64,000 nucleotides of DNA. Origin: an uncultured Veillonellaceae bacterium. GTDB taxonomy: Bacteria; Bacillota; Negativicutes; Selenomonadales; Selenomonadaceae. Every line of letters begins with the position of its first letter. The first letter of the stretch is position 1. A program made the translations under genes and the position numbers. Below are positions 4,457-11,769 of the stretch, one piece after another. The stretch spans positions 1-64,000 of the forward strand of contig ONCF01000068.1 in NCBI GenBank assembly GCA_900316275.1, in the 5' to 3' direction. Below the pieces are notes generated by a model that saw nothing but the letters and a program-made list of their open reading frames with translations, made no database searches and was not told the DNA's origin.

Positions 4457-4520
4457 AATAACGTGCGTGCTAACGCGCACCAGTTTTCCCTTTCTACCAT
4501 AATATAAGTGAGGTGCAGAT

Positions 4521-6056
4521 ATGGCTCTCAAAAAGGCAAATCTCTACGGAGTCATCTATATGTCCACCGCGAAGCTGGAACTGCTCATCGCCGACTTGAA
4601 GACGCACGAAATCATCGAGCGCGCGAGTTCGCCCAGCTTCGTGCAGGTGGCCGACCGTTCCCACATCTACCATGCGGAAATGGAGAAAATCGTCAGCTCG
4701 GTGAATGGCTTCCAGCAGATTCTCGCCGACTACGGCATCAAGGAGTGCGGCTTCTGGGCAAGCCAGCAGCTCATCGACGACATCACGGCGCGCTATCTGA
4801 CGGAGCAGATTGAAAACCGTACGGGGCTCACGGTCACGTGGCTGAGCTCCAGTCAGTTAAACTATTTCCGTGCCGTGTCGCTCATGGCGCACACGAAGGA
4901 GTCCGAAAGCCTCGGCGCGCAGGTCACGTACCTGCTCTACATCGGTTCGGCGAGCGCCACACTGCTGAAATTCCAGCAGGGCACGTTCCTGCGCAGCTGG
5001 AACATCCGCCTCGGCTATCTCGAGATTGACCGGCTGGCCTTTGCGCTGCGCAACGCGGCGAATGACCCGTACGAAATCATTGATGACTACATCGGCAGCA
5101 AGCTCGACTACCTCGGCAACGAGCTGCGCGAAAACCAGCGCGCCGATGGCCACGCCACGCTCGTGCTGCAGGGCTTTCAGGGGCTGAACAACTATTTTCT
5201 CAAGGATGACGAGCGCACGGCACAGGTCTCCCTGGCGGACTATAACAAGCTCTGCGAGCGCCTGCCCTCGGCCCCGACGGCGACGATTCAGAAACGCCTG
5301 CGCGTCGAATCCTCCACGGCCCGCCACGTCATGCCGGGCACGCTCATCACGCGCCGCATCATGGACTTCATCCATGCCAACCAGCTCTGGTGCACGCGCC
5401 TGAACGTCTGGGACGGCCTCGCGCTGCAGGTGGCGCGCGACCGCGGCCTGCTAAAACACGATATCGAGTCCATCACGCTGACCTCGGCCGTGAACATCGC
5501 CCAGCACTACCTCAGTGACGATGGCCACCGCGTGATGACGCTGCGCCTCGCGCTGCATCTCTTTGACCAGCTGCGCAAGCTGCACCATCTCTCGGCGCGT
5601 GACCGCCTGCTGCTGGCCGTGGCCGTCAACGTCTCCGACATCGGCAACTACATCAGCCAGTATGAGCACTACCATCATTCCTATTATATTTTGAAAGCGA
5701 ACCCGATTATCGGCCTTTCCGATAAAGAGAACAGCATCATCGCTGAACTCGCACGCTACCACAGCGCCGAGGCCCCCGACGTCGAGCAGTACCACTACAG
5801 CTCGCTGGAGCCGGATATACAGATGCGCGTTGCCAAGCTCGTGGCCATCCTGCGCCTCGCCGACGCGCTCGATGACTCGCACCAGCAGAAAATCAACCGC
5901 CTCGCCGTGTCGCTGCGCGAGCATGAGATCGTACTCACGGCCTATTCCTCGCAGGATTTGGCGCTGGAGGAATGGGCATTCGCCAAAAAATCCCAGTTAT
6001 TCTACGAAGTCTACGGCCTGAAAGCCGTGCTGAAACAACGGAGGTCCGAAGCATGA
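4521..6056 (+). CDS. Degenerate Ppx/GppA-HD protein (probable regulator of polyphosphate metabolism)
   Basis: 511-residue protein with the layout of the Ppx/GppA phosphatases that carry a C-terminal HD domain: an ASKHA-like N-terminal half (about 1-300) and an HD-like helical half (about 310-490). The key motifs look lost. The first phosphate loop, normally D-x-GSNS, reads YMSTAKLELL. The DxGGGS motif reads YIGSASATLL. The HD site, normally an HD/HE-I-G motif, reads NVSDIGNYI. By homology it belongs with polyphosphate/(p)ppGpp enzymes, but catalysis is doubtful. Its stop overlaps the ppk1 start (ATGA), so the two are translationally coupled. The start follows GTGAGG, and an in-frame ATG at 4560 is also possible. 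Confidence 0.7.
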   Translation: MALKKANLYGVIYMSTAKLELLIADLKTHEIIERASSPSFVQVADRSHIYHAEMEKIVSSVNGFQQILADYGIKECGFWASQQLIDDITARYLTEQIENRTGLTVTWLSSSQLNYFRAVSLMAHTKESESLGAQVTYLLYIGSASATLLKFQQGTFLRSWNIRLGYLEIDRLAFALRNAANDPYEIIDDYIGSKLDYLGNELRENQRADGHATLVLQGFQGLNNYFLKDDERTAQVSLADYNKLCERLPSAPTATIQKRLRVESSTARHVMPGTLITRRIMDFIHANQLWCTRLNVWDGLALQVARDRGLLKHDIESITLTSAVNIAQHYLSDDGHRVMTLRLALHLFDQLRKLHHLSARDRLLLAVAVNVSDIGNYISQYEHYHHSYYILKANPIIGLSDKENSIIAELARYHSAEAPDVEQYHYSSLEPDIQMRVAKLVAILRLADALDDSHQQKINRLAVSLREHEIVLTAYSSQDLALEEWAFAKKSQLFYEVYGLKAVLKQRRSEA

Positions 6057-8230
6057 GCAAAGAGAAAAAGCCCCTGAAACGCAAGGATTACGAAAACAAT
6101 CCCGACCTGTTCACAAACCGCGAGCTCTCGTGGCTGGACTTCAACGACCGCGTGCTCGAGGAGGCGCGCGACGCAGAAAATCCGCTGCTCGAACGTTGCA
6201 ACTTCCTCGGCATCACGCAGAGCAACGTCGACGAGTTCTTTATGGTGCGCGTGGCCTCGCTGAACAAGCTGGCCGCCGCCGGCATCAGCACGACGGACCC
6301 GTCCGGCCTCACGCCGCAGCAGCAGGTCGACGCCGTGAACGCCAAGGAGCACGAGGCCGTGGAGAAACGCTACTCCACCTACAACCGCTCGCTGCTGCCG
6401 CTGCTGGAGAAGCAAGGCATCCGCATTTTAAAACCTGCCGACCTCGACGAGCGGCAAAAGCTCACCATTCACCGCTATTTCTCCGATGAGCTCTACCCCG
6501 TGCTCACGCCGATGGCCGAGGACAGCTCGCGCCCGTTCCCGTTCCTGAAAAACAACTCGCTGAACCTCGCCATCCAGCTCAGCGACGCTGAGGACCCGGA
6601 GAAAAAACTCTTTGCCACACTGCGCGTGCCGGAGCTGTTCCCGCGCCTCGTGAAAATCCCCGGCGCGGAGGAAAACACATTCATCCTGCTCGAGGACATC
6701 ATCCGCGAATTCCTCGCCACGCTGTTCCACGGCTACACGGTGCAGTCGGCCTCGGCCTACCGCGTCATCCGCGACATGGACCTCGACGTGGCCGAGCACG
6801 ACAGCTCCGACCTGCTGCGCGCGGTGAAAAACCAACTGCGTGAGCGCGAGCACGGCAACGTCATGCGCCTCGAGATTGAAAGCGACATGGCGGGCGAGCT
6901 CGCCACGCACCTCATGAACACGCTGCACGTCGCACAGAACACGGTCTACCGCATCAACGGCCCCATCGACCTCACGTTCCTGAAAAAGCTCAGCGGCCAG
7001 GTCACGGGCCACGACGATTTGCGCTACAAGTGCTTCGATAGCTACCACGTGCCCGGCCTCACGCCGCAGGACAATATTTTCGACTCCATCCGCGAGCATG
7101 ACTACCTCGTGCAGCATCCCTACGACTCGTTCGACGCCGTGGTGAACTTCATCCAGCAGGCCGCGCGCGATGAGGACGTACTCGCCATCAAAATGACGCT
7201 CTACCGCGTCTCGGGCAACTCCCCTATCATCAAGTACCTCGGGCAGGCCGCCCAGCACGGCAAGCAGGTCACGGTGCTCGTCGAGGTCAAGGCCCGTTTC
7301 GACGAGGAGAATAACGTGCGCTGGTCCATGCAGCTGGAGAAAATGGGCTGCCACGTCATCTACGGCCTCGTGGGCCTGAAGACGCACTCGAAAATCGCCG
7401 TGGTCATCCGCCGCGACGACGACGGCATCCGCCGCTACATCCACCTCGGCACGGGCAACTACAACGACGTGACGGCGCGTTTCTATACGGATATGGGGCT
7501 CTTTACCTGCAACCGCGAAATGGGCATCGACGCCACGAACCTCTTTAACATGCTGTCCGGTTTCTCACGGCCGCCGTATTTCCGCCAACTCTGTATCTCG
7601 CCGCACAACATCCGCGAGTTCATCTACCAGAAGGTCGACGCCGAGATAGCCGCCGCGCGCGAGGGACGCCCCGCGCTCATCAAGATGAAGATGAACTCCC
7701 TCTCCGACTCCGGTGTCATCGCCAAGCTCTACGAAGCCGCGGCCGCCGGCGTAAAAATCCAGCTCATCGTACGCGGTATCTGCTGCCTGCGCTCCGGCAT
7801 CAAGGGTGTCAGCGAAAACATCGAGGTGCACAGCATCGTGGGCCGTTTCCTCGAACACAGCCGCATCTACTACTTCTACGCCGACGGCAACGAGGACATC
7901 TACCTCGCCTCGGCCGATATGATGACGCGCAACCTGAACCGCCGCGTGGAGATACTGTTCCCCATCCTGCAGCTCGACCTGCGCCGCCGCACGTACGACA
8001 TCTTCCAGCAGATGTGGGACAACAACGTGAAATCCCGCGTCATGCACGGCGAGACATTCAGCCGTATCGACCGCCGCGGCCTCACGCCGCTCGACTCGCA
8101 GCAGGCCTTCATTGACGAGGCCGAGCACCTGAACAAGAAACTGCGCCAGGCCGAGCAGGAAAAGAAAAAGTCGCCGGAAGTCTTCCAGCCCATGATGAAG
8201 CACGAAGACGAGTTCGGCGAAAGCAACTAA
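6053..8230 (+). CDS. ppk1: Polyphosphate kinase 1
   Basis: 725-residue kinase that polymerises the gamma-phosphate of ATP into polyphosphate, reversibly. The N-terminal domain starts with FTNRELSWLDFNDRVLEEA, followed by SNVDEFFMVRVASLNK. The catalytic core holds the phospholipase-D-like halves: VTVLVEVKARFDEENN and LKTHSKIAVVIRRD (the phosphorylated His), then YIHLGTGNYND, and the second His in HSRIYYFYADG followed by SADMMTRNLNRRVEI. Length matches PPK1. The ATG at 6053 overlaps the upstream stop and has GGAGGT at 6040-6045. An earlier in-frame ATG at 5972 would overlap the upstream gene by 28 codons and is rejected. Confidence 0.95.
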   Translation: MSKEKKPLKRKDYENNPDLFTNRELSWLDFNDRVLEEARDAENPLLERCNFLGITQSNVDEFFMVRVASLNKLAAAGISTTDPSGLTPQQQVDAVNAKEHEAVEKRYSTYNRSLLPLLEKQGIRILKPADLDERQKLTIHRYFSDELYPVLTPMAEDSSRPFPFLKNNSLNLAIQLSDAEDPEKKLFATLRVPELFPRLVKIPGAEENTFILLEDIIREFLATLFHGYTVQSASAYRVIRDMDLDVAEHDSSDLLRAVKNQLREREHGNVMRLEIESDMAGELATHLMNTLHVAQNTVYRINGPIDLTFLKKLSGQVTGHDDLRYKCFDSYHVPGLTPQDNIFDSIREHDYLVQHPYDSFDAVVNFIQQAARDEDVLAIKMTLYRVSGNSPIIKYLGQAAQHGKQVTVLVEVKARFDEENNVRWSMQLEKMGCHVIYGLVGLKTHSKIAVVIRRDDDGIRRYIHLGTGNYNDVTARFYTDMGLFTCNREMGIDATNLFNMLSGFSRPPYFRQLCISPHNIREFIYQKVDAEIAAAREGRPALIKMKMNSLSDSGVIAKLYEAAAAGVKIQLIVRGICCLRSGIKGVSENIEVHSIVGRFLEHSRIYYFYADGNEDIYLASADMMTRNLNRRVEILFPILQLDLRRRTYDIFQQMWDNNVKSRVMHGETFSRIDRRGLTPLDSQQAFIDEAEHLNKKLRQAEQEKKKSPEVFQPMMKHEDEFGESN

Positions 8231-8377: not shown

Positions 8378-9328
8378 ATGCAGAGAAGCATCCAAAATGT
8401 CGCCGTCATCGACCTCGGCTCTAACTCCGTGCGCCTGCAGGTCACGCAGATTATCAACAACTCGTTCCTCAAGGTCACGACGCAGCTCAAAGAATACGTG
8501 CGTCTCTCCGAGAACATGGGGCCCGAGAAAACGCTGAAGCCGGAGCCTATCCGCCGCACGCTGCTCGCACTGCAGAAATTCGTCAACACCTATAGCGGCC
8601 TGCCGAATCTGCACGTCATCGCCGTTGCCACGGCGGCCGCGCGTCAGGCGCAAAATCAGGCCGAGTTCCTCGCGAACGTGCGCGATGAGACCGGCATCGA
8701 GTTCAACGTCATCCCCGGCGAGGAGGAGGCGCGCCTCGACTACCTCGGCGTCGTGCGCACGCTCCCCATCACGGACGGCCTCATCATGGATACGGGCGGC
8801 GCGAGCACGGAGCTCATCCTCGTCAAGGACGGCGAGGACAAGGAGCGCATCAGCATCCCGCTCGGCGCCGTGACCATCTCCAGCCGCTTCCACCTCGACG
8901 ACAAAATCTCGGCCTATGACCTCTTTTCCGCCATGTCGTTCGTCGAGGAAGAGCTCGCGAACATCCACTGGCTGCGCGAGGCCTACGAGCAACCGCTCAT
9001 CTGCCTCGGCGGCAGCAACCGCTCACTGGCGAAAATCTCCCGCCGCCGCGTCACGAGCGACGTCGAGGACCTGCCGGACATCCACGGCTACACCCTGTCC
9101 CGTGAGGACGCGCTCGCGCTCATGGGCGACCTAATCCGCACGGACAAAGTGGGCCGTGAACGCATCCCCGGCCTCACGAAGTCCCGCGCGGACGTCATCG
9201 TGGGCGGCCTCATCCCCGTCACGCTCGCCATGCGCCTCTGCCACAGCAGCGAGGTCATCTGCTCGAACCACGGCCTGCGCGAAGGCGCCCTGTTCGACTA
9301 CCTCGACCAGCAAAAGTCCGGCAAGTAA
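8378..9328 (+). CDS. ppx: Exopolyphosphatase / GppA-type phosphatase
   Basis: 316-residue ASKHA-fold hydrolase that removes phosphate from polyphosphate ends and possibly from pppGpp. Unlike the paralogue at 4521, its motifs are intact: IDLGSNSVRLQV at residue 11, VIPGEEEARLDYLG near 112, and MDTGGASTELILV near 137. A GGADVI-like region (SRADVIVGGLIPV) lies near 266. It is the short form without an HD domain. AGAAGG lies upstream of the ATG. It is 147 bases downstream of ppk1 and ends at a strong terminator, so the window encodes both the making and the breaking of polyphosphate. Confidence 0.92.
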   Translation: MQRSIQNVAVIDLGSNSVRLQVTQIINNSFLKVTTQLKEYVRLSENMGPEKTLKPEPIRRTLLALQKFVNTYSGLPNLHVIAVATAAARQAQNQAEFLANVRDETGIEFNVIPGEEEARLDYLGVVRTLPITDGLIMDTGGASTELILVKDGEDKERISIPLGAVTISSRFHLDDKISAYDLFSAMSFVEEELANIHWLREAYEQPLICLGGSNRSLAKISRRRVTSDVEDLPDIHGYTLSREDALALMGDLIRTDKVGRERIPGLTKSRADVIVGGLIPVTLAMRLCHSSEVICSNHGLREGALFDYLDQQKSGK

Positions 9329-9345
9329 AAAATTCCACATACCAA

Positions 9346-9386
9346 AAGCGCCCTGCGGCCACCAGACTGCAGGGTGCTTCTTTTAC
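9346..9386 (+). terminator. Intrinsic terminator after ppx
   Basis: An 11-bp stem (9346-9356 with 9369-9379, one G-T pair) followed by CTTTTA. It may also serve the convergent gene at 9403-9786. Confidence 0.8.
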
Positions 9387-10095: not shown

Positions 10096-11769
10096 ATGGC
10101 CAAACCGGTAATGCTGATCGTCGATGACGTGGAGATGAACCGCGCCATGCTGACGGCTTATTTTGACGACGAATACACCATCCTCGAGGCGGGCGACGGC
10201 GACGAGGGCCTGCGCATCATCGAGGAACAGCCCGTGGACATCGTGCTCCTCGACCTCGTCATGCCCTCGCTGAACGGCTACGAGGTACTGTCGCGCATCA
10301 AGTCCAGCGAGCGCTACGCCGCGCTGCCCGTCATCGTCATGACGGCCTATACGGACGGCCAGAGCGAGGTACTCGCGATGGAGATGGGCGCGGACGACTA
10401 TATCCAAAAGCCTTACAACCCCACGGTCGTGCAGTGCCGCGTACGCAACGTCATGGGCCGCGTCGACCGCGACGCCAAGGCCCGCCAGGTCGCGCGCATG
10501 AAGGAATTCATCGAGCACGACAGCCTCACGGCTATCTACAACAAGGAGACGTTCTGTAAAAAGGTCGCGCAGCACCTGCAGAAACACGCGGACACGCCCT
10601 ACTGTATGCTGTACTGGAACATTCACTCCTTCAAGGTCATCAACGACCTCTTCGGCACGCAGACAGGCGACCGTATCCTCTGCGAGGCCGCGAACTATTT
10701 CCTGCAGCTGTCCAAGGAGACGCAGGGCATCTGCGGCCGCGTGGAGGCCGACCGCTTCAGCGTCTGCCTGCCGCAGGACAAACTGGATATGGAGCACATC
10801 ACGAAACAGCTCGACATCCATATGCAGCAGCTTGGCATCAACAGCCGCCTCACATTCCTCGCCGGTATCTACCCCATCACAAATATCACCCTGCCCGTCG
10901 ACCAGATGCTCGACCGCGCGCACATGGCGCTGAACAGCCTCGGCGCGAACTTTGCCAAGCGCTACGCCAGCTACGACGACCAAATGCGCGAAAAACTGCT
11001 CGAGGAGCAGGTCATCGTGCGCGAAATGGATACCGCCGTCAAAGAGGACCAGTTCTGCGCGTTCTTCCAGCCCATCTACAATCTGCACACGAACGAGTGC
11101 GTGAGCGCCGAGGCGCTCGTGCGCTGGCTGCACCCAGAGAAAGGCCTCATCTCCCCGGGCAAATTCCTGCCCGTCTTTGAGAAAAACGGCTTTATCACCC
11201 GCCTGGACCGCATCGTCTGGGAGAAGGCCTGCCAATGCCTTGCCTGGCAGAAGGAGCACTGCGCGCAGGTCACGCCCATCTCCATCAACGTCTCGCGGCT
11301 CGACTTCTACGCGGGCAATCTGCTCGAGTTTCTGCTCGGCCTCATCAAAAAATACGACCTCGAGACCTGGATGCTGAAGCTGGAAATCACCGAAAGTGCC
11401 TACGTCGACAACCCGCGCCAGCTGCAGGAAATCAGCCAGCAGTTCCACGCGCACGGCTTCCCTATCCTCATGGATGACTTCGGCAGCGGCTACTCCTCGC
11501 TGAACATGCTGCGCAGCCTGCCCGTCGATATCCTGAAAGTGGACATGGTCTTCGTGCGCGACCTCGACAAAGACGAAACAACGCGCATCCTCATGCGCGA
11601 CATCGTGCAGATGGCCCGTGACATGGGCATGCACACCGTCATCGAGGGCGTAGAGACGCAGTCCCAGCTCGACTTCTTGCGCAGCATCGGCTGCCAGGAC
11701 ATCCAGGGCTACTATTTCTCTAAACCCCTGCCCCATCAGGACTTCAAGGATTTACTCAACCATGCCTGA
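10096..11769 (+). CDS. Response regulator with degenerate GGDEF and EAL domain (c-di-GMP phosphodiesterase)
   Basis: 557 residues. The CheY-like receiver (1-125) has IVDDVEMN, phospho-acceptor Asp in LLDLVMPSLNG (Asp54), MTAYTDG and QKPYNP. A GGDEF-family domain (about 140-290) has its signature replaced by VEADRF, so it should not make c-di-GMP. The EAL domain (about 310-550) keeps the catalytic set: AEALVRWLHP, SINVSRLDF, LEITESAY, MDDFGSGYSS, VDMVFV and EGVETQ. Expected role: hydrolysis of c-di-GMP under control of phosphorylation by an unknown kinase. The start ATG follows AAAGGAG. It is a single gene ended by the terminator at 11844. Confidence 0.9.
   Translation: MAKPVMLIVDDVEMNRAMLTAYFDDEYTILEAGDGDEGLRIIEEQPVDIVLLDLVMPSLNGYEVLSRIKSSERYAALPVIVMTAYTDGQSEVLAMEMGADDYIQKPYNPTVVQCRVRNVMGRVDRDAKARQVARMKEFIEHDSLTAIYNKETFCKKVAQHLQKHADTPYCMLYWNIHSFKVINDLFGTQTGDRILCEAANYFLQLSKETQGICGRVEADRFSVCLPQDKLDMEHITKQLDIHMQQLGINSRLTFLAGIYPITNITLPVDQMLDRAHMALNSLGANFAKRYASYDDQMREKLLEEQVIVREMDTAVKEDQFCAFFQPIYNLHTNECVSAEALVRWLHPEKGLISPGKFLPVFEKNGFITRLDRIVWEKACQCLAWQKEHCAQVTPISINVSRLDFYAGNLLEFLLGLIKKYDLETWMLKLEITESAYVDNPRQLQEISQQFHAHGFPILMDDFGSGYSSLNMLRSLPVDILKVDMVFVRDLDKDETTRILMRDIVQMARDMGMHTVIEGVETQSQLDFLRSIGCQDIQGYYFSKPLPHQDFKDLLNHA

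Follow-up and report, generated by a model that had tools for sequence, protein, structure and literature searches.

The window, that is, the whole 64,000-nucleotide stretch of DNA that was analysed, carries a polyphosphate (polyP) operon made up of ppx1, ppk1 and ppx2 (Table 1). As proposed in a first-pass annotation of the sequence, ppx1 is an intact reading frame encoding a full-length protein of the Ppx/GppA-HD type. The sole Pfam match of this protein was to the Ppx-GppA domain III (PF21447, 3.5e-18), which is present in all 28 Ppx1-family members scanned, while the Pfam search gave no match at all to PF02541 in the N-terminal half, and this half matched TIGR03706 weakly (0.0011). When the profile of the window Ppx1 family was compared with structures, it matched 8jgo over positions 10-466 (1.1e-43) and the catalytic Ppx/GppA structure 1u6z over positions 9-443. 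Because matches to catalytic Ppx/GppA structures run across the N-half, this part of Ppx1 is homologous to theirs and has not been replaced. An AlphaFold2 model of Ppx1, built from an alignment of two rows only (P0001 and L033), had a mean pLDDT of 38 and a pTM of 0.25.

The start codon of ppk1 at 6053 and the ppx1 stop codon at 6054-6056 overlap in an ATGA motif, preceded by a GGAGG sequence within the ppx1 3′ end, in agreement with the coupling of the two genes noted in the first-pass annotation. The encoded PPK1 is full-length and retains the residues that align with the catalytic histidines H435, H454 and H592 of E. coli. After a gap of 147 bases follows ppx2, in which all active-site motifs are present by alignment; the second, intact ppx reported downstream of ppk1 is thus real. 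The genome of the window contains one other PF02541 ppx, on a separate contig. Beyond the polyP operon, at 10096-11769, the window encodes a 557-aa response-regulator protein that is GGDEF-EAL-like, its domains having been judged by eye.

Table 1. Coordinates of the genes and sequence features of the polyP operon in the window.
Feature	Coordinates	Strand	Basis
Likely ribosome-binding site of ppx1, GAGGTG, ahead of the ATG	4510..4515	+	sequence
ppx1, degenerate Ppx/GppA-HD protein, 511 aa	4521..6056	+	intact ORF, domain search, alignment
YMSTAK at the site of the former phosphate loop 1 (catalytic Ppx: DLGSNS)	4557..4574	+	alignment
Former ATxxxRxAxN motif (E. coli PPX Arg93), now FWASQQLIDDITA	4752..4790	+	alignment
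Former SGxxEA motif (E. coli PPX Glu121), now WLSSSQLNYF	4839..4868	+	alignment
Former phosphate loop 2 (DIGGGSTEL), now YLLYIGSASATL	4929..4964	+	alignment
HD domain (domain III), residues 316-466	5466..5918	+	domain search, alignment
C-terminal Ppx1-family signature (L482, W485, F487, F494, G499, L504)	5964..6044	+	alignment
Ribosome-binding site of ppk1, GGAGG, within the ppx1 3′ end	6040..6044	+	sequence
ppk1, 725-aa polyphosphate kinase 1 retaining the catalytic His residues H445, H464 and H602	6053..8230	+	
ppx2, short exopolyphosphatase of 316 aa, intact and lacking an HD domain	8378..9328	+	domain search, alignment
Intrinsic-terminator-like stem, 13 pairs, end of the ppx1-ppk1-ppx2 operon	9346..9379	+	consensus match only

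Active site, HD domain and selection

Six active-site positions were scored, which in E. coli PPX numbering are D17 and G19 (loop 1), R93, E121, and D143 and E150 (loop 2). Aligned with E. coli PPX and other catalytic Ppx-HD sequences, the window Ppx1 retained none of them, and the core of loop 2 had changed from DIGGGSTEL to YIGSASATL. That is, both phosphate loops as well as the Arg and Glu residues that characterize catalytic Ppx/GppA proteins are missing, so that the loss of the phosphate loops claimed in the first-pass annotation held up in the very alignment that it had suggested as a check. None of the six residues was retained either in the 9 distinct proteins counted for clade A (the clade of the window, 14 genomes) or in the two Lactobacillus Ppx1, as opposed to all six in each of the 50 catalytic Ppx-HD proteins of the reference set (45 from Negativicutes, 4 from Clostridia, and E. 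coli PPX). The other degenerate Negativicutes proteins retained four residues in 49 of 50 cases and three in the remaining one, and all 50 had a His at D17 and had lost E150; three were retained in the two proteins from a third clade of Selenomonadaceae. Judging from these sequences, the residues kept may trace a stepwise erosion, from the Clostridia relatives (n = 6; three to six residues) through the Negativicutes (four) to the Lactobacillaceae and the clade of the window (none).

The HD domain is less altered than the first-pass annotation had stated in describing its metal motif as lost: H336, D373, D448 and D451 are retained, and only the His of the HD pair is changed, to S372. The ligand set H...HD...D of HD metal phosphohydrolases is therefore incomplete at this one residue, if D448 is, as seems probable, the Asp that serves as third ligand. 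In E. coli PPX the pair itself is HE, and the first and fourth positions are occupied by Q and V, respectively. In the HD-ligand comparison, for which the non-Clostridia groups were used, the HD histidine was gone in all 10 clade A rows (the nine proteins plus L004, a duplicate of L033), whereas most of the 50 Negativicutes relatives had an HD or HE pair and D451 was invariant.

Selection was estimated from dN/dS (NG86) between the genes of the window and those of the congener L033, giving 0.25 for ppx1, 0.185 for ppk1 and 0.189 for ppx2. Inside ppx1, residues 1-310 gave 0.33 and residues 311-511 gave 0.13. Likewise, the mean ratio of C-half to N-half identity was 1.25 in clade A and 1.46 between clade A and Lactobacillus, compared to 1.00 for the other degenerate Negativicutes proteins and 0.84, the reverse of clade A, for catalytic Ppx-HD. 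The N/C ratio was lower for the degenerate than for the catalytic protein in 619 of 741 pairs of genomes encoding both, which were drawn from 39 genomes and are not independent of one another. The residues that are conserved in the Ppx1 family and rare or absent in catalytic Ppx-HD also lie mostly in the C-half: R445 is kept in 63 of 69 family members (4 of the 50 catalytic proteins), K457 in 68 (2 of 50), W485 in 65 (0 of 50) and F487 in 65 (1 of 50). K439 is kept in all 69 family members. On the N-terminal side are S143 (63/69 versus 0/50) and N161 (61/69 versus 0/50).

Distribution and linkage to ppk1

Among 151 Selenomonadaceae genomes, 24 encoded a full-length ppx1 relative (14 in the clade of the window, and 8 and 2 in two divergent clades), and in all 24 the gene was located immediately 5′ of ppk1. 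PPK1 was found in 54 of the 151 genomes, and the 24 genomes bearing ppx1 were exactly those with the 24 top-scoring PPK1 proteins. The other 30 PPK1-bearing genomes lacked ppx1 and had a different PPK1 type, which came after a short intact ppx in the five loci fetched (L139-L143). One of these loci, L143, belongs to G042, a genome of the window's own genus, which has the short ppx followed by the other PPK1 type and no full-length ppx1; since this genome carries the other operon, the two ppk1 operons replace each other within a genus. A scan of genome contigs found one ppx1 relative only, and the L004 protein (congener G059) was identical to that of L033, Selenomonadaceae bacterium UBA2897. 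Of the 14 clade A genomes, 8 had a PF02541 ppx beside ppk1, which appeared to be absent, among the matches listed, from the six g3 genomes.

In Negativicutes as a whole, 210 of 300 genomes had PPK1. Outside Selenomonadaceae, a hand count gave 172 genomes with PPK1, 145 with a strong degenerate match and 27 without, and three incomplete genomes had a degenerate match without PPK1. Given that ppx1 is absent in those 27 of 172 genomes and in 30 of the 54 from Selenomonadaceae, PPK1 as such needs no Ppx1. All 44 ppx1-bearing loci retrieved from Negativicutes outside this family had the gene next to ppk1; a catalytic Ppx-HD gene was also adjacent in 40 of them (36 divergent and 4 tandem, one of the 40 being cut by the locus end). 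The catalytic partner thus varies across Negativicutes, being a divergent Ppx-HD, a short Ppx2, or none adjacent. In a draw of 299 genomes from the phylum, strong matches outside the class were obtained in six (G401, G485, G620, G558, G566 and G481), which we take to be Clostridia from the kinship of one of them (Acetoanaerobium-like) and by elimination; all six adjoin ppk1, and the copy in G620 is interrupted by a stop. The same gene, in the same place and with the same losses, therefore recurs across family and class more than by chance, and degenerate Ppx1 is a conserved family rather than a decaying gene.

A few loci depart from this arrangement. In L126, L135, L136, L129, L130 and L131, PPK1 and the catalytic Ppx-HD are present but the degenerate ppx1 that would separate their genes is missing, and such losses would be helpful for learning what PPK1 needs Ppx1 for. 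In L175 (2246-3823, + strand), the ppx1 before an open ppk1 is split into two ORFs by an in-frame stop, due to either recent inactivation or sequencing error. L180 has, before ppk1, a 91-aa ORF (4899-5171, + strand) that combines a Ppx1-like N-terminal start with the Ppx1 C-terminal tail, apparently an internal-deletion remnant of ppx1. Finally, a stand-alone 194-aa HD protein is encoded in L173 (2075-2656, - strand) directly 3′ of the catalytic Ppx-HD, close to ppx1-ppk1.

Kinship with Lactobacillus Ppx1

Degenerate Ppx1 proteins have been described in lactic acid bacteria. According to a review (PMC12248826), the common order in Lactobacillaceae is ppx1-ppk1-ppx2 (confirmed for L. rhamnosus in PMC11604172), Ppx1 of Lc. 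paracasei has substitutions in the P-loops and catalytic residues, and absence of polyphosphatase activity in Ppx1 is reported for Lc. paracasei only. Lc. paracasei BL23 lacking ppx1 accumulates no polyP, a defect complemented in trans (PMC12248826, citing Corrales et al. 2024), whereas Ppx2 is active and its deletion in Lc. paracasei leaves both accumulation and degradation unchanged. The same source describes a Bacillota cluster with such changes (Lactobacillaceae, Clostridia and Negativicutes) whose members might activate Ppk1, and its 'Cluster II Ppx1' includes the proteins of Lc. paracasei BL23 and of Negativicutes. Separately, a literature search for an exopolyphosphatase as a pseudoenzyme, or for a GppA exopolyphosphatase as catalytically inactive, returned nothing.

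The named references used here were the plasmid-borne operons of L. amylolyticus and L. intestinalis, so that kinship with the Ppx1 of Lc. paracasei BL23 is inferred via these two other Lactobacillus sequences. The L. amylolyticus operon has the order ppx1-ppk1-ppx2 with an ATGA overlap of ppx1 and ppk1, as in the window; in L. intestinalis, ppx1-ppk1 is followed by two DUF2252 genes. The Lactobacillus Ppx1 are 36-37% identical to the window Ppx1 over 98% of the protein and share the loss of all six active-site residues, and identity between the partners is 66% for Ppk1 and 53% for Ppx2; the best identities outside clade A and Lactobacillus were about 29%, 51% and 41% for Ppx1, Ppk1 and Ppx2, respectively. 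In the Ppx-HD tree (94 rows), a branch with support 100 split 57 degenerate proteins, including those of Lactobacillus, from 37 catalytic ones, and the window clade and Lactobacillus formed one 11-row clade (support 100). The same 11-row clade was recovered in the PPK1 tree (66 rows; support 100), and the Ppx2 tree (24 rows) placed the window, L033, L035 and L. amylolyticus together (support 99), the three trees thus agreeing on the Lactobacillus grouping. Rows had been thinned from 139 to 94 for Ppx-HD and from 86 to 66 for PPK1, by keeping alternate loci within a range and omitting near-duplicates. We read this pattern as a probable operon exchange between Bacilli (Lactobacillus) and Negativicutes lineages.

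The window ppx1 belongs to the group already described. Its product has the four-domain Ppx-HD length with an HD domain III and substitutions in the P-loops and catalytic Arg/Glu, its operon has the Cluster II order with an intact ppx2, and in the tree it falls with Lactobacillaceae Ppx1, outside the catalytic Ppx-HD proteins. The host differs, however, being a member of Selenomonadaceae (Negativicutes) known here from sequence, whereas the ppx1 experiments were done in Lactobacillaceae. The native degenerate Ppx-HD of Negativicutes resembles the window Ppx1 in lying upstream of ppk1 and descending from within the degenerate clade, but differs in the four residues that it nearly always keeps, in the His replacing the loop-1 Asp, and in its usual catalytic Ppx-HD neighbour. 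Catalytic Ppx/GppA-HD proteins such as E. coli PPX (PDB 1u6z) share length and domain order with the window Ppx1 but have all six residues that it lacks. The short Ppx2 (A. aeolicus type), encoded in the same operon, has the N-terminal fold in common with Ppx1, but its active site is intact and it has no HD domain.

Role of Ppx1 in relation to PPK1

The present analysis establishes that the window Ppx1 has lost its active site and is akin to Lactobacillus Ppx1, and that its gene is under purifying selection and strictly coupled to ppk1, whereas the loss of polyP accumulation upon ppx1 deletion is a result of others in an orthologue, as given in the review PMC12248826, and would apply here by analogy. 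The strict linkage and the orthologue phenotype support the regulatory role towards PPK1 suggested in the first-pass annotation, although the idea was already in print, the same source having proposed activation of Ppk1 with Negativicutes Ppx1 included. What is added here is a census across the class, the erosion of the active site in steps, the proposed operon exchange between Bacilli and Negativicutes, and the finding that the C-half is more strongly conserved than the former catalytic half.

The best reading, and in our opinion a probable one, is that Ppx1 is a non-hydrolytic positive partner of PPK1. Ppx1 would be a catalytically dead paralogue of a Ppx/GppA-HD exopolyphosphatase, co-translated with PPK1, and net polyP synthesis by PPK1 would require it. 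Its action may be exerted through the C-terminal HD and tail domains, the conserved half, by which Ppx1 would bind polyP and/or PPK1 and hold the kinase in the direction of synthesis, e.g. as a chain-holding or processivity factor.

An unlikely alternative is that Ppx1 makes no contact with PPK1 and instead keeps the intact Ppx2 off polyP, either by sitting on the chain ends or by pairing with Ppx2 in inactive heterodimers. Although Ppx1 is still built like the members of a polyP-binding dimer family and the operon encodes an active-looking short Ppx2, ppx2 deletion was without effect in Lc. paracasei (PMC12248826), and ppx1 keeps to ppk1 throughout the class whereas the catalytic partner varies. 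We consider it quite unlikely that PPK1 is gated by binding or hydrolysis of (p)ppGpp or another nucleotide at the HD domain, and no result obtained here favoured (p)ppGpp over polyP as the ligand; the HD/HE pair and invariant D451 of most Negativicutes relatives and the family-wide K439, R445 and K457 would fit a sensor or residual enzyme, but the HD histidine is absent from every window-clade row, and the full HD set is also absent from E. coli PPX. Decay or frameshift of a duplicated ppx, retained only through translational coupling to ppk1, was rejected as very improbable despite the stepwise erosion and the split (L175) and remnant (L180) copies seen elsewhere, given that the ORF is full-length in all 24 Selenomonadaceae genomes that have it, and in view of the ppx1 dN/dS, the conserved family-specific residues and an orthologue reported as essential for polyP accumulation (PMC12248826).

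With the positive-partner reading as the basis, a broader and more tentative proposal can be made. Ppx1 could be a dedicated non-enzymatic co-factor of polyP synthesis (a chain clamp or PPK1 activator) that arose from a ppk1-adjacent exopolyphosphatase as its active site was taken apart step by step, moved together with PPK1 between Bacilli and Negativicutes as a two- or three-gene cassette, and had its working surface shifted to the C-terminal half.

To our knowledge, the control of PPK1 activity is little understood. The sequence set assembled here opens the Ppx1-PPK1 idea to testing beyond lactic acid bacteria, since it spans operons with complete active-site loss, relatives in mid-erosion and PPK1 lineages without the partner, and it provides family-specific residues as mutation targets (K439, R445, K457, W485 and F487). 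If true, a protein resembling the polyP-degrading enzyme would be needed for polyP synthesis, and the usual annotation of such proteins as 'exopolyphosphatase' would be overturned.
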